From IMG/VR virus record IMGVR_UViG_3300025141_007551, positions 1 through 25,981 of that record: a stretch of 25,981 nt of DNA; one strand, 5' to 3'. Source of the DNA: a virus. The stretch's first letter is position 1; every line of letters starts with the position of its first letter. Position numbers and translations under genes: made by a program. A model generated the notes under the pieces. It had not been told where the DNA came from. It searched no databases and was given only the letters and a program-made list of their open reading frames with translations. Below, piece by piece: positions 794 to 19,607 of the stretch.

Positions 794-801
794 AGGTGAC
801 T

Positions 802-4346: not shown

Positions 4347-4355
4347 TCTATACTG
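4327..4355 (+). promoter_or_regulatory. Possible sigma-70-like promoter before the tail/fibre gene
   Basis: TTCCCA (4327-4332) and TATACT (4350-4355) are separated by 17 bases. They match the TTGACA and TATAAT consensus at four and five of six positions. The site straddles the end of the beta-propeller gene and the 29-base gap before the ATG at 4376. This is one of the few gaps in the left block. Such matches occur by chance, so the call is weak. Confidence 0.3.
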
Positions 4356-4375
4356 CGTAGGAACAAGAGGTTAAA

Positions 4376-5044
4376 ATGGGATACATCACGATTACCGGGG
4401 ATAGCGACGGAGATCTGCATAACGCAGCGATGCACAATTCCAAGTTTGGTGCAATTGCTAGCGTTTTAAATGGAAATGTTGACCACGATAACCTAGCGTA
4501 TCCAAATTCAGAGTTGGTACTTACTGCCACTGGGAAGCATATAGACACAGCCATGTTTACTCCAGGCTCTCCGGTAACTGGTCTCACGGCGACATACGCG
4601 GGCCTGTTGACTGGCTATCAATCTGTTGGAGCAACCGCTTCTTCCGGGGCAGCTTCTGCTGGGGCAGTTGTCACCGCAGACCATTACAATGTTTTAACGG
4701 GGAGCGTGGTTAAAATACCCGCTACGATGACCTTTAAGTCAAATCCAGTTATTGTGGTGGACAATAATCCTGATTTTAACTCAGGCCAAAATTTAACCTT
4801 TATTCTTCAGAGAACAGATGCTGCGGATGATATTTCTGCGTGGACAAATGTTGCTGCCGGGGTAACCCATTCGTGTTACCACGCCTCGTACTCTCAGACG
4901 ATTTTGACGCTTTCTAATGTCGCCAATGCGACTGTTAATGCAAATCATTACATTCGGTTGATTGTTCAAAACAATGCCACTGGGACTGCAACACCGCCAA
5001 CTGTTTCTCTTACCGTTCGACTTAGCACGCCGCACATTACTTAG
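4376..5044 (+). CDS. Tail or fibre-like structural protein
   Basis: The 222-residue product has AGAGG upstream of its ATG. Residues 32-40 read NGNVDHDNL, resembling the G-N-I/V-D-x-x-N-L motif that recurs near the start of phage tail-fibre and baseplate-associated proteins, where a short strand anchors the fibre to the virion (family knowledge; match by eye). The rest is rich in Ala, Thr, Ser and Val with beta-type alternation, and it ends in TPPTVSLTVRLSTPHIT. There are no long coiled-coil heptads, so it may be a short fibre, an adaptor for a fibre or a tail spike base. Host-receptor contact is an inference only. Confidence 0.55.
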   Translation: MGYITITGDSDGDLHNAAMHNSKFGAIASVLNGNVDHDNLAYPNSELVLTATGKHIDTAMFTPGSPVTGLTATYAGLLTGYQSVGATASSGAASAGAVVTADHYNVLTGSVVKIPATMTFKSNPVIVVDNNPDFNSGQNLTFILQRTDAADDISAWTNVAAGVTHSCYHASYSQTILTLSNVANATVNANHYIRLIVQNNATGTATPPTVSLTVRLSTPHIT

Positions 5045-5052
5045 GAGTTATT

Positions 5053-6705
5053 ATGGTAACCAAACTACCACTTCCAAAAGGACCCAGCAATCAGACTGGA
5101 ATGGGCGCAACTCCTGGTACTCAGCAGCGGGCAAAGAGAAACCTTGCTTCTGGCGGTGGGTATAACCCAAACATGCCTGTGGGCAGACAAATTGCCCAGC
5201 AGTCTGCGAGCAGCTACCAGCAAAGCAAAACGCCTGTTGGGATCCCAGGAATGACCCCTACGGCACCTTCTGTGCGAAAGCTTACGCCAGCCATGAAACA
5301 GCCACCGCAGGTCACTAGCGGGCAAGCTGCTACAGGGCGACCTGTTGTTACCAGCGGACAAGCTGCCACAGGACGGCCTGTTGTTACTCAGGGAGCGTTT
5401 GATCCCACAAGAGGATACAATGTGCTCGCAACCATGACGCCGCAGGAAATCTTGGAAACAAATAAAGCTCTTGGGATGTCCAACCTCACACAGCTAGAAC
5501 GCCCCAAGTCCTTGCTATTCTATGAATCTGACGAAAAGACAGAGGAAGAGGAGGCGATTGATGAGGCATTTGGGCAAGATGAGGAAGAGGAGGCAGCGGA
5601 AGAGGAGGCAGCGGAAGAGGAGACCGAGGAAACAGGAAAGGGAGTGCAGGCTGCTGCTGATGAGGTGTCTAAGGCATTAAAAGAGCTAGATGAGCTAGAG
5701 GTTAGTAATGAGGCGGGGTATGAGGCAAAAAGTGTAGAGGAAATGCAGGAGGGGCTTGATGCCGGTCTTCCCAGTTCGCCTGGGTCTCCAACGATTAAAA
5801 AGCCGGAAGTCCCTGAAACTCCAGATCCTTACGATGGCGTAGACCCTACACTTGGGACAGAGAACGTACAGGCGATTGAGGATTTTGTTAACAAGTATCT
5901 TGAAAAAAGTGGTGGCAATACCATTGGCCTCGACCAGGACAAAAAGAAACAAGCCATAGAGCTTCTTGACCAAAAATATGCAACACACTTGCAGCAAGTT
6001 CTTATGGGGTTAGATCGACAAGCCGCGATGGCAGGGACCTTTGGCTCTGCCGCCCATACCATGAACATCAATACTGCGATTTCGGGCTCCTTGCAGCAGA
6101 TGGCTTCTGAGTACATGAACTTAGAGGTAAAGGACATGGAGGCCGTTGAGGCTGATTACGCTCAAATGCTTGAAGAAATGAAGGGCGTAACTCAACAGTT
6201 TAAAGACCTTGAAACAATGGCCATGGATTTGGAAAAGTTAAACCAAATGGCTGCAGATCTAGGCATTAAGAACTTCACAGTGGCAATTCAGAAATTCATT
6301 GCTGAAGGGGATATTGCTGCCCTAGACCTTGAGAAATATGGCCTTGACCTGCAAAAATTTCAGGCGCTAGTTAATAAGTGGGGGCTCGAAGCTGACACCT
6401 ACACAAAGCTTTTAGCCCTAGAGCAAGATGGGGCAAAGCTTGAAAACGAATTGAATCAAGCGGGTCTGGGCATTGCCACTATGTTTGGTGATGATGTGGC
6501 CAATTACGTTAGCGGTCTTTTGGGAATGATTGAGACCCAGTACGAAGGAGAAGATGACCAGGGATACGGGGCTTCTATTATGGTGGCTCTTGGGATGGCG
6601 ATGTCAGATGTGGCAGGAGGGAAAGATTCGGATGAAGTTGCAGCGTGGCTGCTAGAGACTCTTGCTAAAATTGCGGCGGCTTTGGATACAGACCAACCAG
6701 GTTAG
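5053..6705 (+). CDS. Acidic helical virion-internal protein, putative (ejection protein candidate)
   Basis: The 550-residue protein has GGAG eight bases before its ATG. The N-terminal 85 residues are Gln/Pro/Ser-rich and look disordered. Residues 88-111 are two exact copies of a 12-residue unit (TSGQAATGRPVV). Residues about 162-196 are an extreme acidic run of Glu with Ala. From about residue 280 the protein is nearly all helix, with coiled-coil character and many Met and Gln residues (for example LEKYGLDLQKFQALVNKWGL). A final Gly/Ala-rich helical segment follows. It comes first in a run of three large proteins after the tail genes, where podoviruses commonly encode internal virion or ejection proteins (inference from position and composition). 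No enzyme motif is seen. Confidence 0.55.
   Translation: MVTKLPLPKGPSNQTGMGATPGTQQRAKRNLASGGGYNPNMPVGRQIAQQSASSYQQSKTPVGIPGMTPTAPSVRKLTPAMKQPPQVTSGQAATGRPVVTSGQAATGRPVVTQGAFDPTRGYNVLATMTPQEILETNKALGMSNLTQLERPKSLLFYESDEKTEEEEAIDEAFGQDEEEEAAEEEAAEEETEETGKGVQAAADEVSKALKELDELEVSNEAGYEAKSVEEMQEGLDAGLPSSPGSPTIKKPEVPETPDPYDGVDPTLGTENVQAIEDFVNKYLEKSGGNTIGLDQDKKKQAIELLDQKYATHLQQVLMGLDRQAAMAGTFGSAAHTMNINTAISGSLQQMASEYMNLEVKDMEAVEADYAQMLEEMKGVTQQFKDLETMAMDLEKLNQMAADLGIKNFTVAIQKFIAEGDIAALDLEKYGLDLQKFQALVNKWGLEADTYTKLLALEQDGAKLENELNQAGLGIATMFGDDVANYVSGLLGMIETQYEGEDDQGYGASIMVALGMAMSDVAGGKDSDEVAAWLLETLAKIAAALDTDQPG
5314..5385 (+). repeat. Two tandem 36-base units encoding TSGQAATGRPVV
   Basis: Units at 5314-5349 and 5350-5385 encode the same 12 residues. 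They differ at five positions, all third codon bases (ACT/ACC, GGG/GGA, GCT/GCC, GGG/GGA, CGA/CGG). Identical protein with only silent differences suggests an older duplication whose protein sequence has been kept. Confidence 0.9.
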
Positions 6706-6723
6706 TAGCATTGGAGGTTTAAA

Positions 6724-8445
6724 ATGGCCCGTTTTAGGGATCCAGGGGGAGACCCCAATGAAATTCGCGCTAGAGAGTTGGCCCACCAAAGAAGGTTGGC
6801 AAACCCTGGCTATCAACTGTTAAATGCAGGCCTTAGTACAATGGCCAAAACATTAGGCTCTTTGGCCGTAAATGCGGCAAGTTATGAGTGGTTTGGTGGC
6901 AAAGAAAAGACAGAGCTAGAGGCGAAGAAATTTGTAGAGTCAAATCGGCAATTTCAGCAGACGCATGACTTGGGCGTAAAGCAACACGAACATAATGTAA
7001 AAAAACAGCAGCACGCAAACGCAGCAGCCGCTGCGGAAATAGGGTCTAATGCCCTTACTAGAAATCTTTCCAACGTAGACTCCAGTGTAAGAAAAGCTGC
7101 GATGAGTTCTCACTTTGGCCCAAAAACAAAGATGGTAGACTATGAGCAAACACAAGAACCAAAGCCTGCTGTAAATGTGGTTCAAATTCCAGGCGGAGGG
7201 CCTGCGTATGAAGTGTCAGATCCCGAGACTTCTGATTTTGGTTATGAAGGAAAGCATTACAAAAATCTTGCAGAGGGTGAAGTTCCTCCAGGAAACGAAA
7301 TAACTCTTCCGCTTGAAAGAAAAATGGTCCAGCGAGAAGAGGCTATCGACTATTTTAAAGACCTGTCCCAAGAGCAGCGGCAGCAAGCAACGGCTCTTAG
7401 AGACCAGCTTAGTAATTTTGAGAAAGCCCTTGCTGCTCTTCCCCAAAGCCCTGCTCGAGATGCTTTAATTGCAGCCCATGCTTTAAAGCTTGGAATGGAC
7501 GCTGCTGCTGCAGACCAACTGCGGGCTAGGCTTGATGAAGGCAGATCTCTCGCCATTTCTGAGACATCTACTGCGATAGGAAAAGTGCCTACACCAACTA
7601 AAACGGGAGGCGGCTCTGGAGGTCGCGGAGCAGGAGGCAGAGCCAATGATGCAAAGAATCACGCTGCAGCCTATTTGCTTTATAAAGAGGCCATGAGCAA
7701 TCCAAATGTTGGTAGTTCACCGGGCATTATTGGCAACGCAACACCCGAGGAGCAACAAAAAGAGCTTGCAAGGCGAAAACAACGGGCCATAGATAGTGCA
7801 GCGGCTGCCAACAAAGGGAGAAGTTATCTTAAGATAGACCCAGAAAGCAAAATAGCAGCCCTTAGCAGATCTGATATATCTGCTTACAGAGTAACTCACG
7901 GTAGAGATTCTGGAGCAAATAAAGCAGATTACATGAATAAGCTTGAGGACCCCGCTACTGCAGACACCATACTCCCGAGAGTGATTAACAAGCTCAAGGG
8001 CTCGTATCTCAGTGCGGTACCCAATCAAGAAGACGTACAAATCATGCGAGATACTACGCAGCCTCATGACAAAAGAATTGCCGCCAGAGGCAGAGTCTAT
8101 GCTCAACTCAAAAAGAGTCCCAAGGCGATGATGGTGTTAAGAAATCAGGCGTGGGCGGTGCGGCAATCAACGAACAGAGATGCTCCTGAATGGGCAGCAC
8201 CAAAAGCCAAAGCGGAAACAGGTTATTGGGGAACGCTGGAAGGAAAAACGACATGGAATCGGCTCGGAACCGTAAAAGCCGGGGTTATGCCAGAGGGTAG
8301 GAACTCATCCGGCTTAATGAATGACATCAAAAAAGCACTAGACCCGCAGGGGAAAATAAACAGCGCCCAAATAAGCGCAGCTTTGGACAGAGGCGACTCG
8401 CTAGCGCAAATTCATGCAGAGTTGGTCCCCAAACCCGTGCGCTAA
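6724..8445 (+). CDS. Helical virion-internal protein, putative
   Basis: The 573-residue protein has a strong GGAGG before its ATG. The N-terminal 40 residues (ARELAHQRRLANPGYQLLNA, then GLSTMAKTLGSLAVNAA) form an amphipathic helix and a short hydrophobic stretch. Charged Gln- and Ala-rich helices follow at about residues 60-100 and 205-255, the latter with many Gln and Ala. A Gly/Arg linker (GGGSGGRGAGGRAND) lies near residues 297-312. The second half is basic and helical. It follows the acidic protein and precedes the giant protein by 14 bases, forming a trio like the internal or ejection proteins of podoviruses (position-based inference). No catalytic motif is recognised. Confidence 0.55.
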   Translation: MARFRDPGGDPNEIRARELAHQRRLANPGYQLLNAGLSTMAKTLGSLAVNAASYEWFGGKEKTELEAKKFVESNRQFQQTHDLGVKQHEHNVKKQQHANAAAAAEIGSNALTRNLSNVDSSVRKAAMSSHFGPKTKMVDYEQTQEPKPAVNVVQIPGGGPAYEVSDPETSDFGYEGKHYKNLAEGEVPPGNEITLPLERKMVQREEAIDYFKDLSQEQRQQATALRDQLSNFEKALAALPQSPARDALIAAHALKLGMDAAAADQLRARLDEGRSLAISETSTAIGKVPTPTKTGGGSGGRGAGGRANDAKNHAAAYLLYKEAMSNPNVGSSPGIIGNATPEEQQKELARRKQRAIDSAAAANKGRSYLKIDPESKIAALSRSDISAYRVTHGRDSGANKADYMNKLEDPATADTILPRVINKLKGSYLSAVPNQEDVQIMRDTTQPHDKRIAARGRVYAQLKKSPKAMMVLRNQAWAVRQSTNRDAPEWAAPKAKAETGYWGTLEGKTTWNRLGTVKAGVMPEGRNSSGLMNDIKKALDPQGKINSAQISAALDRGDSLAQIHAELVPKPVR

Positions 8446-8459
8446 GGAGTTAAATAGCA

Positions 8460-11400
8460 ATGGTTCAGTTTAACGAAACCCCCCTCACGGAAGAGGAAGA
8501 GGAGGAGTTGCGATTAATTAGAGCAGAGATGGCTGCACACCAGGCTGCTCAAGATTTGCCTGAGCCACAGCCTGTGGAGTATGTGCCAGAAAGCCCTCCA
8601 GTGGAGATGCCGGGTCCTCTTTCTGTCATAGACGCCTTTATAGAAGGGCCTGCCGAAAACCCTTATGAAGACACCCCAGAGTACCAATACCAAGCTGCCC
8701 CTTTACACGCATTCCAGGCTGAGCCAGAGCCGCTTCCAGAGCCCATACAGGCCCAGACTGGCGAGGCATTAGATGTAGTTCCCATTGACCAGGGTCCATC
8801 TATTTCGTATTTGCAGGACGGGACTAGTGAAGTAGACGAGTTTGTGGAAGCAGTTGAGGCCGGTCCAGTTGCCTTTAACCCAGATGTTCACATTCAAAAA
8901 AACAGCAATATTCCGTTTGTGCGGAGAATTGTAGACCCCAAGAAGTATCCTAAGAAATTTATTAGCCCAGAAGGGGAGTGGACAGACCATAGAACTTCAG
9001 ATGAGGACTTAGAGCTTACGCACCGATTGATGTACACGTCGCCAGAAAAGCCGATACACATTAACGGCAAAGAGGCGCATATTGTTTACCCTTCAATGCG
9101 GTATAATAATCCAACGAAAGGTTTGTATGAGGACAGAGATCCTTACACCGCAGTAGCTGAAGGGAATTACATTGAATTTGATTCAGCGGAAGATGCCAAG
9201 AAATTTGCGTCCACATGGAAGTCATCGTTTGCATGGCAGGCTGGGCAAAGCCGTGAGTTTGGGCCAACTCCAGTCCAAGAAGACCCCATATACCCAGGAC
9301 CATTTACGTCTCCTGATGCCGGGGCAGGATACTCAGACCCTTTCTTTGAGGATGATGTTAAGTCAGAGCGCCCCTCTACTGTAGTCAATAAAAGACGCTT
9401 TTATTTAGATGCGGGAGAAAGCCCAAACCCAAAGCTGAACTTAGCAAGACAAGTTATTGAGACTGTTTCATACGGGAGTGAAGTTGAGCGCCAGTTGGCC
9501 CTAGAGGCTATGGCTGCTGCCGCCGTAGAAGAAGCGTCCAATGCAAAAGAATCTGACCGGCCAAATGATGCAAAGTACGGCAAGGACCTGACGTCAATGC
9601 GTAATGCATTTCGGGCAATGGGTGATTTTAATTTTGTAGAAGCAGGCATCGATAGCTTTAATGCTCTCTTTTTTGAGCAAGGAGCCACCCCAGAGGCATC
9701 AGGCTCTACTATTTTAACAAAAGGCGGAATGCGAGTCCGCCCAAAAGGTGCTTACACGGATTCTCCAGAACTCGAAGGCCAAAAACGGGTTGAAGAAGGC
9801 CCAATTGCAGAAAATGAAACATATCAATCTCCCACGCTAGATGAGTATGCAGAAATGCTTCTCTCCAACTCTACGAGGGCATTTGACGCAGAAACAAGAA
9901 ACGAAGCATTTAAATATTTAAATAAGTATCTGGGAGCGCAGGAGCAAATAAAGCCACAGGACCTGTTTGTTCAGTCCGAAAACGTGACAGGCACTGGCGG
10001 AAAGCTTGCTACGCAGTTGCTTCAACTGACCACTCTTCTTCCAACAATCCCGGTTTCTGGCTTTTTGGCCGCTACCCAAGGGAGAGCTAGAAACAGAGGT
10101 GAGGTCACCGGAGATGTTAATTACGCAAACATACTTAATGCAGAGCAAGCAAACCAAGTAATTGATTTAAGAGGGGCGTCATTAAACGCAGACCCTAAAT
10201 CTGTAGAGGCGCAGAAAGTCCGAGTGTACGAAGATACCTTCGCGGTAATGAGAGACCCTAGTGTTGCGGCTGCTCGGACATCAGGAATGTTTGCCCTCTA
10301 TGCCCGTATAGGAGGGCGTTCCCACAACCCAAAGGAAGGCAGCTTTGAAACAGTTAAAATGATGCCTTCTGACATTGAATACATCCTAGATCCAAAGAAT
10401 TTAATCCCTTACCAAAAGGGCCTTTGGGAGCACATCAATAAAGTGTATTACGAGCGAGTTCCTGCAAAGCTCGCTGGCGCAGAATTTATGGAAGGCATTC
10501 CAGCCGAGCGAGTTCGTGCAGAGCTTGCTGGCTCAGAACTTATGGAAGCCAACATTGGAGTTCTGGACTCACCCCGCGAGCGGGCGCAAAAGGTAAAGAG
10601 CCGCCGAGCCGTGCAAGAATCAGCCCTTCGCGGGGCTTTCCCAAATTCCCCATACTGGAGCAAAGAGGCTATTTTTGAAAGGCTAAAACTTTCATCAGCT
10701 TTAAGTTGGGCAGACGCGATAGACCCAGATAATGCAGATAGCCTCTTCCTCCAAGGCTACCGCCCAATTAGGCCCCCCAAGGAAGGCTGGGCGATGCGAA
10801 AAGCCCAAGACGACGCCAAGGAAGAGTGGTTGAAGCACTACCGAGGCGAATCCGAGGTCGCTCCGTGGGAAGGGGCAGGTTCAAATTACCGTTCGGGCGT
10901 GAACCCGTGGTCGCTTAAAAATGAGCTTCGTGAGCATACTTACAGAAAAGCATTAGGAATTAGTTCAGAGCGAATTGGGGAGGCTGCGAAGGCTGGAGCC
11001 TTTGGACAGGCGTTCCAAAACGAAGCCGGGGTAATTATGGCCCAGGTGTTCACAGAAGTTGCCACCCGGCAACAAGCTTCTGAGTTTGATACAGTTGTTG
11101 GAGAGTATGCCCAACGAATGGCAGAGTCTATGAGCCCTGAGATGATGTGGCATGACTTTACCCTTTCTTTTGCAGGGGCGACTGGCATTGGAGACCCAAA
11201 GCTAGTAGCGGAAGGAAAAGAGTTTTGGAATAATTACCCGCTCTTTGGTGTCCTTAATGTCGCCATGGGGTCTGCTGGCATTTCAAAGCTTGCAGTAAAA
11301 CCCGCTATAAAGCATGGGGTTACCACAGTGGGTGCTGCGATAGAGGCAAGCCCTGCGCTTCAAAAAGTATCACAAGCCTTTGAATTATTTAAAGAGGGAG

Positions 11401-14400
11401 ATGTCGCTGGCGCTAAAGCTCTTTATGTAGAGGGGATGACTGAGTACAAAGCGCAGTACAAAACCGCAAAAGAAGTTCAAATGGAAGCGTTTAAAGACGC
11501 GGAGAAATTAGCAAGCAGCCCTATTAGCAGGAAAAAGGAAGCCGCTGCTAGTTTAGACAGTCCAGAGAATGTAATTCGCATTAGTGGGGATGACGTACAG
11601 CCCACAATAAACCAAAAGCGAAGAGAAGCCCAAGAGTTTGAGGCGAAAGCAGATGAGCTTGCAGAGGCAAATGATCCTACTGCGCGTGCGTATAGAGACA
11701 AGGCGCAGTTTGCTCGAGATGTGGCAGATGCTCTCGAGGTAGGCCTAAAAGAAGAGCTTCAAATAAAATCTCAGCAGGCCGGGGAATCCCCAAGAAGAAC
11801 TCCGCCTCCAGAAGAAGTCCAGAGAAGGGAAGAAATTGCTGCTGATATTAGTAATCGTGCTGCAAACAAAGACACGGTTGGTATTAGAAAGCTCAGAGAG
11901 GCCCTAAAGGCCTTTTGGAATACAGACCATCCCAACAATCACAAACTGCTTGCCCATCTCCGCACAGACGCAGAGGCAGCAAAAGATTACGCTCGGAGAA
12001 TAGCCTCTACTGGCGAAACAGATGTCAGGGTGTATCTTGAACTGCTTGGCGAGTCTGAGGCAGCTTTGATTCAAGACCTCGTGTATCGAGCAGAAAACGC
12101 TCCGGTCTCTAAGAATTTACGGACTGTCCTTGATGAGATGGCCGCAAAGAATAATACGACGCCAGAGGCTTTAATGGCGCAACAAAACCGCCTAAGCACT
12201 GCGGAGCAGCTTGCACATCGAGGGGAAAAGAACGCGGCTGTTTATGAGGCCCTTGGCATTTCAGATAATTACATAGATTACTTTGTAAACATGGCAGAGA
12301 GAAGAAGTGCCTCCAAAGCGTATGTCACCTCAAGAGTGTTTGGGGATGGCTTAGAGCTTACCATTAAAAATGCTCCACACAGGGGTCGCTTCCAGACTGG
12401 AATTATCGGTGCCGCGCAAGTTGCAAGAAGAAATCTTCTGGGAGAAAAGGCAGATGCTCTTGTGTCTGCGGCTTCAAAAAACACTCGTGCTGTTAACTAT
12501 GGGTTGGCAGTTGCTGAGTTTATGGAGAGGCCTTTTTCTTTTGCAAATATACCAAGCTGGTACTCAGACGTAGTTAATTACGGACTGCACCATCAGATTG
12601 CAAAGAACCACCAAAGCGGTTTTGGGAAATTTCTCGAGCACCTTTTTATGTATTCCGCCACAAACAGCAGTCTTTTGGGACGAGATGTCTACCATCAGAT
12701 ACAGCGAGCCGGTGGCGTTGAGCAATTGGCAAAGGCGGACATTGAGGCCGCTACAAAAGAATTGCTTGGGGGGGATTTTGATTTAAGGAATGCGGATGTT
12801 GCAAATGCTCTAAGGGAGCTTGGCATCTTTTCTGAGGAGTTTGGAACTGAAGGAGAGCTTTTGCAAGGCCTTACGACCTTGGCTGAAGATCAATTCCAGT
12901 TTGCGGCAGAGTTAATTCATCGCGGCCTTATTGGCGAAAAGATTGACGTCGGTGGCTTTTCCATTGACGTTGCTGACGTAATGCGCCTTCAGGTAAAGCG
13001 TAGGAAAGATAAGGACAGTCCTGGCGTTTGGGAAGACGCGATTGATGAGCGTGGGCGCATGGAAGAAATCAAAACCCGCAAGGGGGAGATAGACGCCACG
13101 CTTCAAGACCAACTGACCAAGAAAGAAATTGAAGACTCCGTTTCTTTAGACCCCAAAGATGTCGCAAAGATTGAAGACCTGCAACTGCGACTACAAAAAC
13201 AAAAAAGCCCAGAAGAGCTTGCAGCCCTTAAACAAGAACGTGATGCCCTTGTTGCTGAAGCGAAGGACATTAGGTCCATTACTCAACAAGATGCCCTTGA
13301 AGGCGTAGAGTCCATTCGATGGGTACCTGCTTTAGATGAAAATGGAAACCAAAGAACGTATGCCTCTATGGGTCCAAAAGAGCGGGAAATGCTTGCTGTG
13401 GCTAATAACACGGTGCAGGGAATATCTAGTAAGATCTTTTCCGTAGGAATGGATCTCATTCTTGGGCAGCAAGCTCTTGATATTTCAATTCAAAGCGCAC
13501 GGCCAAAGGGCGTCATTGTCAGGGACATGGACGTTGTTTCGACTCGCGGCACCTGGGACCGGAAAGAAGCGCCTAGTCGGAGAAAGAAATATAAGGTTCT
13601 CCGTGACTTTGGAGACACAAAGCAGGCCCAGGAAAGAGCGGCCCGTGTGGCGGCTGCTATTAACGAGCTAACCCATGGCAGAGAAATGCCGCAGGGAATA
13701 AGTGCGGCAGACCAGAAGTTTGTTCGGGCAACTGTAAAAGAGCTTGGGGAAAATGAAAAGGTTTCCACACAGACAAGGCAACAGTACGAAAATCATACCC
13801 GTGTTGTAGGAGAAAGCCCACTTAAATTCCAAGGGTACGAAGTCATTCCTCGTCTTGTTAACTATGTAAGCTCTTACTTCTTGAGAGAGGCTGAAGCTGG
13901 CCACATCACTAGGATTCTTGGGGACTATAAGAAATGGCTAGATGATGAGAAGGCAGGAAAGCCCTTCGAGGAAAGGCGCGGGATTAGCCCAGAGCAGTAC
14001 AAGGTTCAGGTTTCCGCTGTTGCTCAGAAATATCTGCAGCTATTCCCAGACCAGAAAAAGGTGCAGGAGTTTGTAGATAAAAAGAACGGAAAGGGTACGT
14101 TTAAAACCAACCCGGTAAAAGCTCTTGAAACACTAATGGATACGGCCAAGGAGACCCTTGATCAAAACGGCATTGTCATGCAGGGAGACGCACGGTTTTT
14201 TAAAACAAGACTGTGGGCGAAAGACCTTTCTTTTGAGCAGCAATTAGAAAGCCTTGCAAGCTACAGAGAGTCTGCGGCCAAAACATACGTGGGGCTGGTT
14301 CAAAGAAGAGAAGTTCTTCGACTCCAAACAATGCTCAGGGAAAATGGGCTTTTGGTGTCTGATTACGAATTAAACACCAACTCAGGTTTAAATCGAAATT

Positions 14401-16643
14401 CATACGTTAAAGGAGATGCAATTCCTCTGCCAAGAATGGCGGAATTTGGGCTGCTTTGGAAGAACCCGTTTGAGGTAAAGACAAAAGAGCTAAAGGTTGG
14501 CGATAAAACAGTTCGATACCAGCGACCAGGACTAAAAGATGCCGAGACCGTTCAAGCGGGTGGCGCTATGTCCGACTTCTACATTCACAAGAGTGTGGCG
14601 AGGTATTACGCACAGCAGCATGTGCTTGTAAAAGCCCAAGAAAGTGCGCTGGTTAAGATAAACAATATGTACAAGATTGGTGCTGTTGTAAACCCAATCA
14701 CAGGTACAATGGTCCGAAACTTAATTGGTATGTACACCTTCCAGTCTGTTGCTGCAGACATCCCGTTTCGAGGAACGTATTGGAGAAAGGTACATAATGA
14801 ATTGAAAAAGGTTCGGGCTGGGGACAAAAGCGCAGACCCTGTTATTCGACGAATGGTTGAAGAGGGCGTGCTTGGAAATCTAATTGTGGAGCTTGGGGAT
14901 TCAGGGGCGGCGAGAGCAGCCACGGAGTCTTTCCTTGTAGACGTTTTTGCAGGCAAAGACAACAAGGGCACTGTAGGGGAGTTTATGAACTCCTTGGACT
15001 CCACTGACCTTAATAACCGCGCTATGGGCAAGTTGCTGGATGGCCTTATGGGGTCAGATCAGGCATGGAATGGTCTGGCAGATAACATTAGTTTGATTAG
15101 AGCAACGGATGACGCCGCCCGTCCGGGGCAGATTCCAAAAAGGGAAAATCTTTTTGAGGTCCCTAGCATCCCTCGCGCAATTAGTGCTTCTCTCAAGAAG
15201 GGACGTCAGGCGTATGGATCCATCGATGACATTGGACGCGCATCGTATGCGTATGAGCTTGTGAAGAACCATAACTTCACAGTTCGAGATGCCGTAATCC
15301 GGGCAAACCAAGTTATGTTTGATTACCCAGATGTCAGCATGTTCACTGCAATGCTTCGGACGAATCCGTTTTCTTTTGGAATGCCTTTTATTGGCTACAC
15401 TGTTTGGGCAAATGAAGCGTTTGCAAATCTTTTGACCAAGCATACTCCTCGAGCATACATGATCGCAGGCGCTGCAAAGGCGCAGATTGCTGTGGTCGAG
15501 GCTATGCTTGGAACTCCTGACGCAACGCGAATGTTTGCCAGCACAGAGTATGACCCTGGAGCACTTCCTATGCCCGCGTATAAAATACAAAAGGCTAAAG
15601 GGTATGCAAAAAGAAGACTAAAGGGCAAAAGAGACGAATATGTTGGCGGCCCTGAGTTTATGAGAGGGGCTCAATTCAGCGCCTTCATGGATCCAAATGT
15701 GTGGCGTCGAATACAAATGGCTGAAACCAAGAGCATGGAAGACCTGTCCATGCTAGAAAAGCTTAAGTACACAGGGGCGGCGCTTTTAGGATCACAAGGG
15801 TTTACAGGAGAAGCCGCATCAAGCCTTTTCTTGCCATCTGTCAGAGACAACCCAAGGGCAAGCGACCTGGAGCAAATAAGCCGAGCCAAACTGTCCGTCA
15901 GACTGGACAACATTAAAGAAGACGGCTACGAGGATGCCAATGCAGTTGTCCCAGAAGCGGGAGACATCGCAACGCGCCGGTTCTGGCAAAACACGATAAA
16001 GCATCAGCCTTATTTCAACGCTGCCATCAGAGGCCTTGTTGGCATTTACAGTGCCGCAACAGGCGAGGACACCCTCGGGATGGGGGCTACCGGAAGAGAT
16101 GTCATTCAGAAGTTTCTGGGCATATCCACAACTCTCTATGACGAAAGATTTAAGTCTGTGCTGCAGGAAGAGGGCCGAGCAGAGCTTTCAAACTTAAAAG
16201 CGGCGTACAAAGGTTTGATTGAAATGGGCAAGCGCCTAGATATAGAGAATAGAGCCGGTGTTCGCAATGAGGCTCAGATAGAAATGGTTAATATTTATGC
16301 AAACCACGTCTACAACTCAATAAGCAAAATCAAAGGGAATAAAAACGCAGTAAAGGCTAGCCATCGAATTAAAGTCCAGGCCCATTTGGATAAGATGCAA
16401 GTGTACTTAAAGGCGCTTGTGTTGGGGCAGGATGTTAGCTTGGCTGAGTACGAAGCCAGCCCATTTGGAGGCCCAGAGTTTTCTCTTCCGTCTCCAGCGC
16501 CAACCTTTGATGATATGGATGTCGCCCCTCCGGCAAGGCAGGAGGATTTTGATGACATTGAATTTAACGACGAGGAACTAACTCCAGAAGAGGTAGAGGA
16601 ACTACGTCTGATTAAGGAGGAGTTGGGCATCGCCCCGCTGTAA
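8460..16643 (+). CDS. Giant 2727-aa virion-internal/ejected protein, putative
   Basis: A single uninterrupted frame. AGGAG lies ten bases before the ATG, a rather long spacing. Residues 1-150 are acidic and Pro-rich. A region near residues 200-270 with EFDSAEDAKKFASTWKS resembles a short domain seen in other large phage proteins. A hydrophobic stretch lies near residues 922-946 and a charged coiled coil near 1555-1605. Around 2078-2090 is NPITGTMVRNLIG, and around 2286-2320 are MFDYPDVSMF and NPFSFGMPFIGYTVW. The N-P-x(5)-R-N and F-D-Y...P-F pair recurs in giant phage and polyvalent proteins that travel with DNA into the host (family knowledge; match by eye). Its ends share a motif, described separately. 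Residues 665-700 hold a tandem repeat. I found no convincing RNA polymerase, protease or lytic transglycosylase motif. DNA ejection or a membrane channel is the likeliest role; injected effectors are possible. Confidence 0.6.
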   Translation: MVQFNETPLTEEEEEELRLIRAEMAAHQAAQDLPEPQPVEYVPESPPVEMPGPLSVIDAFIEGPAENPYEDTPEYQYQAAPLHAFQAEPEPLPEPIQAQTGEALDVVPIDQGPSISYLQDGTSEVDEFVEAVEAGPVAFNPDVHIQKNSNIPFVRRIVDPKKYPKKFISPEGEWTDHRTSDEDLELTHRLMYTSPEKPIHINGKEAHIVYPSMRYNNPTKGLYEDRDPYTAVAEGNYIEFDSAEDAKKFASTWKSSFAWQAGQSREFGPTPVQEDPIYPGPFTSPDAGAGYSDPFFEDDVKSERPSTVVNKRRFYLDAGESPNPKLNLARQVIETVSYGSEVERQLALEAMAAAAVEEASNAKESDRPNDAKYGKDLTSMRNAFRAMGDFNFVEAGIDSFNALFFEQGATPEASGSTILTKGGMRVRPKGAYTDSPELEGQKRVEEGPIAENETYQSPTLDEYAEMLLSNSTRAFDAETRNEAFKYLNKYLGAQEQIKPQDLFVQSENVTGTGGKLATQLLQLTTLLPTIPVSGFLAATQGRARNRGEVTGDVNYANILNAEQANQVIDLRGASLNADPKSVEAQKVRVYEDTFAVMRDPSVAAARTSGMFALYARIGGRSHNPKEGSFETVKMMPSDIEYILDPKNLIPYQKGLWEHINKVYYERVPAKLAGAEFMEGIPAERVRAELAGSELMEANIGVLDSPRERAQKVKSRRAVQESALRGAFPNSPYWSKEAIFERLKLSSALSWADAIDPDNADSLFLQGYRPIRPPKEGWAMRKAQDDAKEEWLKHYRGESEVAPWEGAGSNYRSGVNPWSLKNELREHTYRKALGISSERIGEAAKAGAFGQAFQNEAGVIMAQVFTEVATRQQASEFDTVVGEYAQRMAESMSPEMMWHDFTLSFAGATGIGDPKLVAEGKEFWNNYPLFGVLNVAMGSAGISKLAVKPAIKHGVTTVGAAIEASPALQKVSQAFELFKEGDVAGAKALYVEGMTEYKAQYKTAKEVQMEAFKDAEKLASSPISRKKEAAASLDSPENVIRISGDDVQPTINQKRREAQEFEAKADELAEANDPTARAYRDKAQFARDVADALEVGLKEELQIKSQQAGESPRRTPPPEEVQRREEIAADISNRAANKDTVGIRKLREALKAFWNTDHPNNHKLLAHLRTDAEAAKDYARRIASTGETDVRVYLELLGESEAALIQDLVYRAENAPVSKNLRTVLDEMAAKNNTTPEALMAQQNRLSTAEQLAHRGEKNAAVYEALGISDNYIDYFVNMAERRSASKAYVTSRVFGDGLELTIKNAPHRGRFQTGIIGAAQVARRNLLGEKADALVSAASKNTRAVNYGLAVAEFMERPFSFANIPSWYSDVVNYGLHHQIAKNHQSGFGKFLEHLFMYSATNSSLLGRDVYHQIQRAGGVEQLAKADIEAATKELLGGDFDLRNADVANALRELGIFSEEFGTEGELLQGLTTLAEDQFQFAAELIHRGLIGEKIDVGGFSIDVADVMRLQVKRRKDKDSPGVWEDAIDERGRMEEIKTRKGEIDATLQDQLTKKEIEDSVSLDPKDVAKIEDLQLRLQKQKSPEELAALKQERDALVAEAKDIRSITQQDALEGVESIRWVPALDENGNQRTYASMGPKEREMLAVANNTVQGISSKIFSVGMDLILGQQALDISIQSARPKGVIVRDMDVVSTRGTWDRKEAPSRRKKYKVLRDFGDTKQAQERAARVAAAINELTHGREMPQGISAADQKFVRATVKELGENEKVSTQTRQQYENHTRVVGESPLKFQGYEVIPRLVNYVSSYFLREAEAGHITRILGDYKKWLDDEKAGKPFEERRGISPEQYKVQVSAVAQKYLQLFPDQKKVQEFVDKKNGKGTFKTNPVKALETLMDTAKETLDQNGIVMQGDARFFKTRLWAKDLSFEQQLESLASYRESAAKTYVGLVQRREVLRLQTMLRENGLLVSDYELNTNSGLNRNSYVKGDAIPLPRMAEFGLLWKNPFEVKTKELKVGDKTVRYQRPGLKDAETVQAGGAMSDFYIHKSVARYYAQQHVLVKAQESALVKINNMYKIGAVVNPITGTMVRNLIGMYTFQSVAADIPFRGTYWRKVHNELKKVRAGDKSADPVIRRMVEEGVLGNLIVELGDSGAARAATESFLVDVFAGKDNKGTVGEFMNSLDSTDLNNRAMGKLLDGLMGSDQAWNGLADNISLIRATDDAARPGQIPKRENLFEVPSIPRAISASLKKGRQAYGSIDDIGRASYAYELVKNHNFTVRDAVIRANQVMFDYPDVSMFTAMLRTNPFSFGMPFIGYTVWANEAFANLLTKHTPRAYMIAGAAKAQIAVVEAMLGTPDATRMFASTEYDPGALPMPAYKIQKAKGYAKRRLKGKRDEYVGGPEFMRGAQFSAFMDPNVWRRIQMAETKSMEDLSMLEKLKYTGAALLGSQGFTGEAASSLFLPSVRDNPRASDLEQISRAKLSVRLDNIKEDGYEDANAVVPEAGDIATRRFWQNTIKHQPYFNAAIRGLVGIYSAATGEDTLGMGATGRDVIQKFLGISTTLYDERFKSVLQEEGRAELSNLKAAYKGLIEMGKRLDIENRAGVRNEAQIEMVNIYANHVYNSISKIKGNKNAVKASHRIKVQAHLDKMQVYLKALVLGQDVSLAEYEASPFGGPEFSLPSPAPTFDDMDVAPPARQEDFDDIEFNDEELTPEEVEELRLIKEELGIAPL
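8484..8528 (+). repeat. N-terminal copy of the terminal motif in the giant protein
   Basis: Codons 9-23 of the giant gene encode LTEEEEEELRLIRAEM. Eleven of the first 15 residues match the copy at codons 2707-2721 near its C-terminus. The DNA itself is less alike than the protein. An acidic, Pro-rich, apparently disordered segment follows. Confidence 0.75.
10452..10559 (+). repeat. Tandem 54-base repeat inside the giant gene
   Basis: Two in-frame 18-codon units lie at 10452-10505 and 10506-10559. They start ERVPAKLAGAEFME and ERVRAELAGSELME; ten of 18 residues match, all within the first 14. The unit is a short charged helix. The DNA runs are also alike (GAGCGAGTT opens both), which indicates a duplication event rather than convergence. 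Confidence 0.85.
16578..16622 (+). repeat. C-terminal copy of the terminal motif in the giant protein
   Basis: Codons 2707-2721 encode LTPEEVEELRLIKEEL, followed only by GIAPL and the stop. An acidic, Pro-containing stretch (APTFDDMDVAPPARQEDFDD) precedes it, mirroring the arrangement at the N-terminus. Confidence 0.75.
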
Positions 16644-16655
16644 AGTAATTAGCTA

Positions 16656-16683
16656 TTGAGCAATTAACCAATTGTGGTATACC
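16656..16683 (+). promoter_or_regulatory. Candidate extended -10 promoter for the small-gene and lysis run
   Basis: In the 62-base gap after the giant gene, TTGAGC (16656-16661) is followed after 16 bases by TATACC (16678-16683). The -10 is preceded by TGG, which supplies the TG of an extended -10 element. It lies 22 bases before the ATG at 16706 and points toward the genes that follow. A host sigma-70 promoter for this run is plausible. A phage polymerase or another start site cannot be excluded. Confidence 0.45.
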
Positions 16684-16705
16684 CTAGCAACAAAAGGAGA
16701 AAGTC

Positions 16706-16864
16706 ATGCCAGACTACGGAAAGGATTATAGCTTGCCTAAGTACTCTCACACTAAGTTGAAGAGCAGCGACAAGGCTAGCAGCACAAAGAGCCTGGACTC
16801 TAAGTCCAAATCCAAAAAGAATCACAACTCTTCCAAGAAGAGCGGGAAGAAGATGGGGTACTAA
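16706..16864 (+). CDS. Small Lys/Ser-rich basic protein (52 aa)
   Basis: AAAAGGAGA sits just upstream of the ATG, one of the best ribosome sites in the block, so this short frame is likely real. The product starts MPDYGKDYSLPKYSHTKLKS and continues as a nearly pure Lys/Ser/Asn stretch ending in SGKKMGY. It has no hydrophobic core and is probably disordered. The strong positive charge suggests binding to DNA or to an acidic protein partner, possibly as a virion-packaged small protein (inference). The next gene starts three bases after its stop. I recognise no family. Confidence 0.65.
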   Translation: MPDYGKDYSLPKYSHTKLKSSDKASSTKSLDSKSKSKKNHNSSKKSGKKMGY

Positions 16865-16867
16865 GCC

Positions 16868-17392
16868 ATGGCTGGTAATATCAGAGTACTTGTCTCCAAT
16901 CTTGGTGACGGGAATTGGGGCGTGACTGGCACGACATCAGCGGATTCAAATCTTCTTGATGACACTGCTGCGTCAACGACAAGCAAGTCTATCTTTTTCC
17001 CTCCCGCGTTTAACGCCAATGGGACACAGAACAAAAGCGTTGCCCCGACTGCCGGTGACTCAGATATGTCTCCACTGGCAGCCTCATCTAATTTTGTTGG
17101 ATGGACTTCCAAGACTCAATGGATGATCCAAGTAGTGACTACCAATATGGGTACGAGCGGCGGAACTCCAACTCTCACCGTGTCTGTTGTTCGGCCTACC
17201 GGGGTAGAAGAAGTTATAGTTGCAATAACTGCAACCGGGACTGAGAGTTACGGTGGGTTTGGAGATGAGGCTATTGTAGGTCCAGTCTCTTACTTTAAAT
17301 TTACTTCCAATACTACTGGCGGCTCCCCTAACCACCGTTGCTATGTTATTGGATGGAACTACGGAGATATTTCTGATGGGCTTGCGTCATAA
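16868..17392 (+). CDS. Beta-rich virion structural protein
   Basis: The 174-residue product begins MAGNIRVLVSNLGDGNWGVT. It is rich in Thr, Ser, Gly, Asn and Val with regular beta alternation (QWMIQVVTTNMG, TPTLTVSVVRPTGVEEVIVA). There is no membrane segment. The composition is like the small structural proteins at the left end of the window, and a decoration, head-fibre or tail-associated role is likely (inference). No good ribosome site precedes the ATG, so translation may depend on the 52-aa gene just upstream. The next gene overlaps its end by 17 bases. The family is not recognised. Confidence 0.7.
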   Translation: MAGNIRVLVSNLGDGNWGVTGTTSADSNLLDDTAASTTSKSIFFPPAFNANGTQNKSVAPTAGDSDMSPLAASSNFVGWTSKTQWMIQVVTTNMGTSGGTPTLTVSVVRPTGVEEVIVAITATGTESYGGFGDEAIVGPVSYFKFTSNTTGGSPNHRCYVIGWNYGDISDGLAS

Positions 17393-17606
17393 CGATTCTA
17401 AGAAAGTTACCCTTGTCATTGACGGATTGGATGAACTTGATGTTCGTCTTGATAACGCCGAGACAAAGTTTGATGAAATTGAAAAGAAAGTAGATGATGT
17501 CATCACTGTTATGGAGGGTCTTGTAAAAGACATTGCTGCACTAAAGAAGCCAGCAAAGAAAGCTCCAGCCAAAAAAGCCCCTGCAAAAAAGGCAGCCAAG
17601 AAATAA
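17376..17606 (+). CDS. Coiled-coil protein with histone-H1-like PAKK tail (76 aa)
   Basis: I chose the ATG at 17376 because GGAG lies nine bases upstream. An upstream ATG at 17343 would overlap the previous gene by 50 bases. The first 50 residues form a charged heptad helix (VTLVIDGLDELDVRLDNAET, then EIEKKVDDVITVMEGLVKD), a likely coiled-coil oligomer. The C-terminal 20 residues are only Lys, Ala and Pro in repeats (KKPAKKAPAKKAPAKKAAKK), like the tails of histone H1 and bacterial H1-like proteins, which bind DNA loosely (family knowledge). A DNA- or membrane-interacting accessory protein is likely. It precedes the lysis-type genes, but no lysis role is implied. Confidence 0.7.
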   Translation: MGLRHNDSKKVTLVIDGLDELDVRLDNAETKFDEIEKKVDDVITVMEGLVKDIAALKKPAKKAPAKKAPAKKAAKK

Positions 17607-17615
17607 TGGGGCAAC

Positions 17616-18494
17616 ATGCCAATCAAATACTCCCTCATCGCTCGCATCATCAGGGCCATTAAACGGGCCTTAGCCAAAAAGAATTATCCTAAATTCATTT
17701 TAACTGTATGGAAGAAGTCTCAACTCCATAAGGACTGGGCTTCTAGCATAGATGGGTTTGATGCGATCTCTGTAAAGGTCTTAGACGGCTCCTCTAAGTT
17801 TCAGCTACAAGAGGCTGCGTCAGTGCTTGTAGAGGCCGCACATCTAAATCTAGAGCATCACGGGTGGGGATTCCATTACTGTCTCACCAAAGAAAAAGCA
17901 AAAAAAGAGGCAACTGCAGCCGCAGACCTTTGTAAGAAATTAAATTTAGTTGGTTATCATTGGAATGCTGAAAAGCAATGGAATGCCTCTGAAGACCCCG
18001 AAGGCACTGCGATTGAGTTTGCAGAGCAGTTTAAATTATTGGCACCAAGAGTAAAATTATTCGCAAATTGCTTTTCATCGAAGGTCACATCGGAGATGAT
18101 GGAGGTGTTCGATTACTATGAGCCAATGATTTATGGAACTAGAATTTCTACAATTTCTAAGAAGTTTAAAAACAGGTGGAGTTCCCCGAGCATGCGTCCT
18201 GACCAGCGATGCGCTATGGTTGGTACCGGGAGAAAAAATCCACGTAATCCAAAGCAAGCCTGGGGGTATACTTACTCCACTGGCTCTGATTCTTCTGAAT
18301 CGGGACTTGATAAGCTTGTCAGAGACTACAAACCAGCATACTTAAATTACTTCAGAGCAGGAGTAATTGGTGGGGAGGACATAATGATGGAGTCAAACGA
18401 CATTAATCCTACCCTCTCGCAGCAAATTAAAGTAATAAAGAAGTCGATTAGAGATGAGCAAAGAACACTTCAACGGGATGGCCAGCGTGTCTAA
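17616..18494 (+). CDS. TIM-barrel glycoside hydrolase-like protein, endolysin candidate
   Basis: The 292-residue product has a basic amphipathic N-terminus (IARIIRAIKRALAKK) and then eight strands that can be laid out as a TIM barrel. They are near residues 26-31 (KFILTVW), 51-57 (ISVKVLDG), 84-89 (WGFHYC), 113-121 (GYHWNAEKQW), 146-152, 168-174 (YEPMIYG), 199-205 and 242-248 (YLNYFRAG). N117-A118-E119 at the end of strand 4 sits where GH25 lysozymes have the catalytic D-x-E, so E119 is the candidate acid, but Asn replaces Asp (inference). There is no signal peptide. Only a weak GGGGC precedes the start. Two membrane proteins follow, as in lysis cassettes. It could also be a tail-associated hydrolase. 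Confidence 0.5.
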   Translation: MPIKYSLIARIIRAIKRALAKKNYPKFILTVWKKSQLHKDWASSIDGFDAISVKVLDGSSKFQLQEAASVLVEAAHLNLEHHGWGFHYCLTKEKAKKEATAAADLCKKLNLVGYHWNAEKQWNASEDPEGTAIEFAEQFKLLAPRVKLFANCFSSKVTSEMMEVFDYYEPMIYGTRISTISKKFKNRWSSPSMRPDQRCAMVGTGRKNPRNPKQAWGYTYSTGSDSSESGLDKLVRDYKPAYLNYFRAGVIGGEDIMMESNDINPTLSQQIKVIKKSIRDEQRTLQRDGQRV

Positions 18495-18837
18495 CGACGA
18501 ATCAAATGTGCTGTTAAGGGAAATCCTTGATAACCAAAAAGAGGCCCTCGATTTAAATGGCCAACTTGTTTTGTTAAATGGGAAGATGGATAAGCTTATT
18601 GACTGCGTTGATAAAAAGATGCAGCCCTCGAGCACCGTCAATGCCATTCTTTCAAACACACACGCCCTTTCATCCATTGTATTTATTGTCCTTGTGGCTC
18701 TTTTTTTAGGGCTGGGGGATGGCATCATGGAGAGATGGCTTGGGCCTGGAGAGGTAACTGATGAAAGCATTGAAAAAATTATTCGAGTCCTTGAAAGGGC
18801 TTCTCAGCCACCTGCTAGCTCAACGCCCGCAGAGTAA
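18454..18837 (+). CDS. Single-pass membrane protein, holin-like candidate
   Basis: The 127-residue product has an acidic coiled-coil N-terminal part (LLREILDNQKEALDLNGQLV), one hydrophobic segment at about residues 71-88 (ALSSIVFIVLVALFLGLG) and a short, mostly acidic C-terminal tail. It overlaps the candidate endolysin gene by 41 bases. No clear ribosome site marks the ATG at 18454, and the ATG at 18478 (overlap 17 bases) is an alternative start. The size, the single membrane span and the place after an endolysin candidate fit a holin or other lysis membrane protein (inference). Typical holins have more hydrophobic sequence, so the role is open. Confidence 0.55.
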   Translation: MSKEHFNGMASVSNDESNVLLREILDNQKEALDLNGQLVLLNGKMDKLIDCVDKKMQPSSTVNAILSNTHALSSIVFIVLVALFLGLGDGIMERWLGPGEVTDESIEKIIRVLERASQPPASSTPAE

Positions 18838-19327
18838 GCCAGAGAAGAACCCAATGGCAGAGCTTCAGTTGTATCTCTGGGGGTTCTTTGCCGTGAGCCT
18901 TTTCCTTATTCTTGTTTTAAATACGTGTGGCTGCACGGAACAATCTAGGCGCATATTTAAAGAATCTGTGGTATCTGCCACCGATTGCGCTTTTCATACA
19001 TCGCTTGCGTGTGCGTCTCAAGCATCTGCTGGCTGTGAAAAACCCTCCAATGGGGAAGGTTATGGAGAATTTGGACAATGTTTAGTGAACCGTTCAGCCT
19101 CTTGCTCTGGTCGAGGATTGGGGCTTTGCCTTTTAAAAGGAATCGCAAATGTGCTCGGCTCGACTTCTGTGGCTGCTGGGGGTGCTGGCTGTGTCGGTAG
19201 CAACTCTTTGGAACAAGTTAAAGCTTGTGTTTCGGATGTTACTATAGAAACAGAAAGCGATGCCGTTCAAACTGTGGCATACTGCTATAGGCATGTATGT
19301 ATGGAAGGCCCTGGAACAGAGCCATAG
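18761..19327 (+). CDS. Membrane-anchored Cys-rich protein, spanin-like candidate
   Basis: GGAGAGG lies six bases before the ATG at 18761, inside the previous gene, giving a 77-base overlap. The 188-residue product has a basic N-terminus, one membrane segment at about residues 36-54 (LQLYLWGFFAVSLFLILVL) and then NTCGC. The outer part holds ten further cysteines, making 12 in all, many in short A/G-C contexts, which suggests disulfide bonds in an oxidising compartment. There is no canonical lipobox: the residues before the first Cys are LNT. Overlapping membrane proteins in a lysis region recall nested spanin genes (family knowledge), but spanins are not usually this Cys-rich. An envelope or exclusion role is an alternative. 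Confidence 0.55.
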   Translation: MKALKKLFESLKGLLSHLLAQRPQSKPEKNPMAELQLYLWGFFAVSLFLILVLNTCGCTEQSRRIFKESVVSATDCAFHTSLACASQASAGCEKPSNGEGYGEFGQCLVNRSASCSGRGLGLCLLKGIANVLGSTSVAAGGAGCVGSNSLEQVKACVSDVTIETESDAVQTVAYCYRHVCMEGPGTEP

Positions 19328-19337
19328 CGAGGAACGG

Positions 19338-19607
19338 ATGCCCACCAAGAAATCAAAAAGAAATTACAAGAAAGAGTATGCCAGGGACCATGCGTCTACT
19401 AAGGCCAAGAAAGCCCGAGCAAAAAGAAACGCTGCCAATAAGAAATTAAAACCCGGTAAAGGCAAAGAGGTAGACCACAAGAAGCCTCTGTCTAAGGGTG
19501 GCTCAAATAAAAAGAGCAACCTTCGAGTGGTGTCCCGCTCCACTAACCGGAAGAAAGCAGCAAGCACAGTAACTAAAAAACGCAAGACCACTCGAAAGAA
19601 AAAATAA
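19338..19607 (+). CDS. Small HNH-type endonuclease-like protein
   Basis: GAGG five bases before the ATG at 19338 supports this start over an in-frame ATG at 19260, which would overlap the previous gene. The 89-residue protein is extremely basic. Residues 46-73 read as an HNH core: D46-H47-x2-P50, then GGSN, N61-L62 and N70-R-K-K. This is the pattern of small zinc-less HNH nucleases in phages (family knowledge). The last histidine position is Asn, giving an H-N-N form. Such nucleases can nick DNA during packaging or replication, or may only bind DNA. It is the last gene of the plus block and ends eight bases before the stop of the convergent minus gene. Confidence 0.65.
   Translation: MPTKKSKRNYKKEYARDHASTKAKKARAKRNAANKKLKPGKGKEVDHKKPLSKGGSNKKSNLRVVSRSTNRKKAASTVTKKRKTTRKKK

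Follow-up and report, generated by a model that had tools for sequence, protein, structure and literature searches.

A candidate late lysis cassette encoding a glycosidase-like barrel with an N-x-E site and a cysteine-rich probable lipoprotein in an IMG/VR virus record

Genomic organisation of the P1-P2-P3 region

The stretch of DNA analysed here (hereafter the window) constitutes the whole of the 25,981-base IMG/VR virus record IMGVR_UViG_3300025141_007551. Three overlapping genes, named P1, P2 and P3 (Table 1), form the end of its forward late block, with P1 placed after the structural genes, and are located ahead of a strand switch at ~19.6 kb to the replication genes, where matches to a helicase, an SSB and a Cas4-type exonuclease were obtained. 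The closest relative of the window, L002, is sited in the 44.6-kb record G001, whose upstream genes encode a terminase, a portal and a major head protein. L002 aligns with window positions 792-16918 in blocks at 91-96% identity (and one 0.9 kb block at 85%), while identity amounts to 83% over positions 17428-19606 and 79% over the replication side.

Table 1. Positions of the genes, motifs and notable codons of the P1-P2-P3 region in the window
Feature	Position	Strand	Description
P1	17616..18494	+	292 aa; candidate cytoplasmic endolysin, predicted TIM-barrel, glycosidase-like; homologues in 10 of 13 related records
N117-A118-E119 codons	17964..17972	+	End of beta4 (residues 113-117 of the model); invariant in 11 of 11 members
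P2	18454..18837	+	127 aa; soluble N-terminal part and one hydrophobic segment; holin-like; homologues in 8 of 13 related records
P3	18761..19327	+	188 aa; probable lipoprotein rich in cysteines, with C58 as the putative lipidation site; homologues in 12 of 13 related records
P3 C58 codon	18932..18934	+	DNA identity to L002 collapses nearby; likeness to L004-L006 starts
P3 twin CX7CX7C	18986..19129	+	C76/C84/C92 and C107/C115/C123; located within predicted helices 60-91 and 101-132 or at their ends

Assuming the most upstream start codons, the P1/P2 and P2/P3 overlaps measure 41 and 77 bases, and these overlaps, the N117-A118-E119 motif and the 12 cysteines of P3 are all present as an earlier, sequence-only reading of this DNA had described them. 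Among the eight other contigs that carry the trio, the P2/P3 overlap varies from 77 bases (L002) to none (L014, with a 1-base gap), and is thus not essential, while the P1/P2 overlap is present in eight of the nine trios, the window included. Differences between the window and L002 are commonest at third codon positions (10/7/42 at the first, second and third positions of P1, 9/6/33 for P2 and 61/56/107 for P3), and the corresponding dN/dS values are 0.107, 0.085 and 0.155, to be read with the caveat that some bases are common to P2 and P3 and that dS of P3 is near saturation. The third-position excess, together with the low dN/dS values, indicates that P1, P2 and P3 all look like real genes under purifying selection.

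Conservation of the cassette among related records

Scans of viral contigs identified 13 other IMG/VR records with relatives of P1, P2 or P3, and record-wide searches of these 13 yielded the counts given in Table 1. The order P1-P2-P3 is kept in eight of them (G001-G007 and G013). Absences from the remaining records are soft, since these records may be fragments: in G008 (contig L015) the barrel constitutes the C-terminal part of a 977-aa protein and neither P2 nor P3 was found; G009 has a free-standing P1 and, ~9 kb off, a P3, with P2 not found; and G010 and G011 have P3 only. Three records (G009, G010 and G011) therefore contain P3 without adjoining P1-P2, its neighbours being other small late genes. 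In G010, P3 is situated ~2.3 kb from the contig end, by which P1-P2 may have been cut off.

In G012 (L032), an Amidase_2 endolysin (E 3.2e-8), which also displays a PG_binding_1 match below the cut-off, lies ahead of P3 at the usual position of P1-P2. A record-wide search of G012 found no barrel, and no Amidase_2 was found in the other 12 related records, including all ten that carry the barrel, nor in the window. Additionally, no PHROGs lysis match was obtained among the 27 window ORFs and ten G001 ORFs scanned, which leaves the phage with no other known endolysin.

Based on the cassette context, the amidase of L032 in the position of P1-P2 and the lipoprotein-like nature of P3, the best reading of the region is a late lysis module, comprising an endolysin (P1), a holin-like protein (P2) and an outer-membrane lipoprotein (P3) of a presumably Gram-negative host; we assign this reading a probability of roughly 0.55. 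Two sets of observations speak against it, namely the 977-aa fusion and the three records in which P3 lacks adjoining P1-P2. The fusion protein (L015:4003-6936, with the motif W-W-N-A-E) belongs to a larger phage in which a late sigma factor is encoded upstream of it (PHROG 234, E 2.4e-5), and the fusion suggests that the barrel acts as a virion lysin in that phage. The sequence-only reading had allowed that the genes might be virion components, an idea for which the fusion and the P3 genes beside other genes in three records provide the basis. In the form in which P1 would be a virion-associated lysin used at entry, with P2 and P3 as unrelated neighbours, this is quite unlikely: the position of P1 after the structural genes, and the fusion with its nearby late sigma factor gene, are consistent with such a role, but P1 is a free-standing protein of 280-294 aa in nine of the ten barrel-bearing related records, its overlap with P2 is retained in nearly all trios, a conventional amidase endolysin occupies its position in L032, and the ORF scans of the window and G001 returned no lysis match.

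The predicted fold of P1

Pfam and PHROGs searches with P1, P2 and P3 of the window produced only matches of E ~0.1 or worse, and the best match across the P1 family (PIF6, 0.017, in three of 11 members) was taken as chance. No match was obtained among INPHARED phages by tblastn with P1, P2, P3 and the L015 domain, and searches of PDB sequences and of GTDB genome contigs with P1 gave nothing useful; a GH25 hint from PDB sequences (PlyB, E 2.0, with the L015 protein) was too weak to use.

The AlphaFold2 model of P1, built with nine sequences (pLDDT 86.2, pTM 0.85), represents a (beta/alpha)8 barrel with strands at residues 26-31, 50-57, 80-86, 113-117, 147-151, 167-169, 198-202 and 242-247, helices between them and an extra strand at 211-215. 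The closest solved folds among the VIA-align matches listed are GH18-type barrels (Z 16.3-18.1 over 221-256 residues), such as 3co4 (Z 18.1, 243 residues aligned, rmsd 4.7) and the spore cortex-lytic SleL (4s3j_C; Z 17.2, 232 aligned, rmsd 3.3). Judged by their titles, 48 of the 50 matches listed are of GH18 type (chitinases and chitinase-like proteins, SleL, and others), and the other two are Cwp19 of C. difficile (5oq2_B; Z 16.7, 233 aligned, rmsd 3.2), a cell-wall enzyme. Foldseek also placed GH18 glycosidases first, with GH25 LytC as a partial match (163-168 alignment columns), and viral models named lysozyme gave partial structural matches. While GH18 glycosidase barrels are thus the nearest in fold, barrels of unrelated function (aldolase, tryptophan synthase) occur lower down in the Foldseek list, so that the fold alone is no proof of a glycosidase.

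P1 has in common with GH18 enzymes the near full-length (beta/alpha)8 barrel and a Glu at the end of beta4, and its invariant M171-x-Y173 at beta6 resembles the GH18 beta6 motif. However, identity to GH18 proteins is 7-12% among the matches listed, there is no Pfam match, and the beta4 sequence G-Y-H-W-N-A-E departs from the GH18 beta4 motif D-x-x-D-x-D-x-E, with N replacing the D before E. Cwp19 displays the highest identity to P1 among the VIA-align matches listed (16-17%), but no sequence-level match.

The sequence-only reading had regarded P1 as a GH25-like enzyme, an assignment that was not supported, as GH18 structures cover nearly the whole barrel and none of the 11 members has a GH25 Pfam match (in a search that asked for E up to 10, although HMMER filters drop most matches above ~0.1). 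The P1 profile scored 31.9 against nine GH25 domains, versus a maximum of 24.5 in 100 column shuffles, which represents a weak signal (25.6% probability) confined to the stretch that runs from beta2 up to the helix ahead of beta4; against eight GH18 domains it scored 19.5, within the shuffles (95% level 20.7). The domains compared were picked by eye for spread, and comprise nine of 30 listed GH25 hits and seven of 25 listed GH18 hits plus E. coli chiA. K54 and D57 of P1 align with K34 and E37 of the GH25 enzyme Cpl-1; an equivalence of N117/E119 to Cpl-1 D92/E94 was not borne out, the GH25 profile alignment being offset by two and placing N117 on E94. Furthermore, the P1 model contains helices (177-188 and 231-238) between its last strands, in contrast to GH25 enzymes (Cpl-1, LytC, PlyB), for which PMC7954357 gives a (beta-alpha)5(beta)3 fold, and P1 has N-x-E in place of D-x-E on beta4. 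On these grounds, P1 is treated here as its own family of glycosidase-like barrel, a member of neither GH18 nor GH25, which appears to be related in fold to GH18 and is possibly related to GH25.

The N-A-E site and the N-terminus of P1

Conservation of E119, on which the interpretation of P1 as a hydrolase had been made to depend, is complete: N117, A118 and E119 are invariant in all 11 members, as are D57, H82, H87, N151, M171, Y173, R206 and W216, and E119 is found at the end of beta4 in the model. It is very unlikely that P1 represents a catalytically dead barrel, e.g. a sugar-binding or scaffold protein that has lost the Asp of D-x-E. N does stand for D at the first motif position, and Asp-to-Asn changes are used to cripple GH18 enzymes. 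Additionally, the Asp of D-x-E is proposed as the acid in GH25 (PMC7954357), and N117 would be harmful if P1 employed this mechanism. Against a dead barrel, the N, the E and the other polar or aromatic residues are invariant among members that are 33-95% identical to the window protein, and GH85 enzymes with N-x-E are active. The description of N-A-E as an odd site is not supported, N-x-E not being odd by itself: Endo-A of GH85 works with N171-x-E173, the N171A mutation abolishing activity and E173 being positioned as the acid (PMC2646837). Because active GH85 enzymes also have N-x-E, the P1 site need not, by analogy, be broken. The motif, at the end of beta4 in the P1 model, is common to P1 and Endo-A, but the known substrates of the latter are N-glycans and not peptidoglycan, P1 has no GH85 Pfam match, and GH85 is absent among the structure matches listed.

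The basic amphipathic N-terminus attributed to P1 was recovered in the window and L002 (hydrophobic moment 0.65, matched by 3.7% of shuffles). Among the other eight free-standing P1 proteins, two (L006 and L039) stand at 3%, one at 7% and five at 26-62% of shuffles, and the feature appears to be no clear trait of the family.

P2 is a predicted holin-like membrane protein

P2 contains one hydrophobic segment at approximately residues 74-92 (by hydropathy), preceded by a soluble part in which L32, L34, G36-V39, N42 and K44-D46 are invariant in 9/9 members; the tail is short (10-11 residues) in L014 and L039. The flank on the N-terminal side of the segment is more positive than that on the C-terminal side in all nine members, which argues for the predicted N-in/C-out topology. 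This layout suits a holin or an XhlA-like holin partner, and not an i-spanin. XhlA, as encoded beside the endolysin in PBSX-type cassettes, combines a small, helical soluble part with a single TM segment at the C-terminus, and P2 has the same layout, but no XhlA match. A search of one open-access library found no literature joining holin, coiled-coil and endolysin for XhlA.

Two further small proteins were recorded in this context. The only XhlA match among ten window proteins scanned was that of the protein encoded at 17343-17606, which is sub-threshold (16.6 bits vs a cut-off of 34.7); this protein ends in a KKAPAKKA repeat run, and similar lysine-rich-tailed proteins were found by eye ahead of P1 in L002-L007. 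In L018, an ORF at 2375-2887 (minus strand), convergent with the P1 gene of that contig, has a P2-like layout, with a charged helical part ahead of a hydrophobic segment at the C-terminus, but no P2 match was found in that record.

P3 is a cysteine-rich probable lipoprotein

Ten of the 12 cysteines of the window P3 follow C58. An alignment of 12 family members shows ten invariant cysteines, while C144 is lacking in a single member. C58 is invariant and lies after the hydrophobic segment, with G, A or S as the preceding residue in 12/12 members; L, V or I occupies the -3 position in four of the 12, and I in L084, which is outside this set. The description of P3 as having no clear lipobox is literally correct for the window, where T-C-G precedes C58 and the -3 position (T) is poor, but some relatives have sequences closer to a lipobox (FAG, VAA and IVG before the cysteine in L014, L032 and L084, respectively). 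Thirty-four residues precede the most hydrophobic 19-residue stretch of the window protein, which is long for a signal peptide. Judging from the alignment, the lipobox is a trait of the family that is poorly developed in the window, and P3 is probably a lipoprotein with C58 as the lipidation candidate.

The twin CX7CX7C is found in 13/13 P3 members; when residues 59-188 of the window protein were shuffled 20,000 times, a pair of these motifs appeared in 45 shuffles. The P3 model (pLDDT 81.5, pTM 0.57) is fully helical, and the members of the pairs C76/C123, C84/C115 and C92/C107 are equidistant from the turn between its two helices, which suggests a disulfide-stapled hairpin with three staples, C76-C123, C84-C115 and C92-C107. 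Structural searches with this model yielded Foldseek matches of E 0.6 or worse and VIA scores of Z at most 6.5, within noise for helical models; a match of one P3 relative to SAA (0.015, Pfam/PHROGs) was taken as chance.

P3 resembles o-spanins (Rz1, T4 PseT.2) in being late and lipoprotein-like, in overlapping a membrane protein gene beside the endolysin, and in having cysteines in its exported part. It differs in the number of the latter, ten after C58 versus at most four periplasmic cysteines in o-spanins in a survey of 528 two-component spanins (PMC6139136); the earlier remark on standard spanins not being Cys-rich holds as a matter of degree. It also differs in its fully helical model and in that no i-spanin candidate was recognised in the window, which is a fragment, such that a partner may be located elsewhere. 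An arrangement in which P2 and P3 form an overlapped i-spanin/o-spanin pair is, all considered, unlikely: the 77-base overlap of a membrane protein gene with a lipoprotein-like gene is as seen in overlapped spanins (PMC6139136), but the conserved part of P2 precedes its TM segment and the charge distribution would place it in the cytoplasm in all nine members, the reverse of an i-spanin, P3 exceeds the cysteine maximum quoted above, and P2 was not found in four of the 12 related records with P3.

A family of proteins with an i-spanin-like layout, A10, was noted in L039 (2937-3371), L084 (1576-2007, minus strand) and G012; the first two are homologous proteins of 143-144 aa (64% identity) that combine a TM segment at the N-terminus with a tail rich in Pro and Glu. 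A10 was dropped as a partner of P3, being present in three of 13 records and not in the window, and once ~11 kb from P3. A scan of viral contigs with the A10 protein retrieved its own locus only.

Exchange of the P3 domain

Identity between the window and L002 is 95% for P1 and 91% for P2, versus 53% for the P3 domain. Conversely, the P3 domain of the window is 76% identical to that of L004 and 72% to that of L005, two phages with a P1 identity of just 58%. At the DNA level, identity to L002 starts to drop at ~18756, and falls to 25/60 bases in 18936-18995, just past the C58 codon, while bases 19056-19115 are identical (60/60) between the window and L004. These comparisons indicate that the P3 domain was exchanged between the window phage and L002, which are 91-96% identical over most structural genes. 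As the L002 domain is 43-53% identical to all others in a set of eight, L002 may be the recipient of a foreign P3 domain.

The exchange bears on a somewhat doubtful alternative, in which P3 would be a late outer-membrane superinfection-exclusion lipoprotein that blocks a receptor or DNA entry and has only the transcript in common with the lysis genes. Exchange of the exported domain of P3, and not of P1 or P2, would be expected under changing selection, and the records with P3 but no adjoining P1-P2 point in the same direction. On the other hand, P3-domain identity follows P1 identity overall (Spearman 0.82, eight phages) and not that of the variable protein encoded at 16868-17392, and the window and L002 diverge in further patches of the genome as well. 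P3 may have either a spanin-like or an exclusion role. Literature searches in one open-access library found neither a report joining a cysteine-rich lipoprotein to phage lysis nor one on a corresponding superinfection-exclusion lipoprotein.

The product of the 16868-17392 gene is a late protein of 174 aa. Its window and L002 versions are only 44% identical, although the flanking DNA on the left is ~96% identical; L002 and L005 have another allele in common (75%). A joint swap of this protein and P3 was dropped, as their identities are uncorrelated (Spearman -0.19, eight phages).

Proposed mode of action

The lysis interpretation advanced in the sequence-only reading is partly supported, by the lysis-type cassette, the glycosidase-like TIM barrel with its conserved E119 and the unusual Cys-rich envelope protein, though not in the GH25 identity of P1. 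Under the lysis-module reading, P1, made without a signal peptide, would collect in the cytoplasm until P2, through its soluble N-terminal part and single TM segment, forms or assists an inner-membrane hole. P1 would then act on peptidoglycan, cleaving its glycan strands through a retaining, N-acetyl-assisted mechanism, with E119 as the acid and N117 holding the acetamido group of the substrate, as in GH85. After export, P3 would receive a lipid at C58 and reach the outer membrane, on which its oxidised helical domain (the stapled hairpin plus C144, C156, C175 and C180) would act as the last step. A more specific and rather doubtful proposition is that P3 represents a new class of outer-membrane-breaching lipoprotein, a stapled hairpin that functions without a classical i-spanin and whose exchangeable domain is usable with either the N-x-E barrel or an amidase.

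If correct, the lysis-module reading would extend the phage lysins by a glycosidase family in which N-x-E occurs naturally. The cassette, whose three genes can be expressed in laboratory E. coli, would also allow outer-membrane breakage by phages of uncultivated hosts to be studied, the Cys content of P3 being outside the range reported for spanins.

Other genes of the late block

Upstream of the cassette, positions 8460-16643 encode a 2727-aa late protein with zero cysteines and no PHROGs match, which is probably a giant internal virion or ejection protein; some of the patches in which the window diverges from L002 fall within its gene. Downstream of P3, a lysine-rich small HNH-type protein is encoded at 19260-19607 (Pfam HNH, E 9.1e-5; PHROG 4590, E 1.3e-14).
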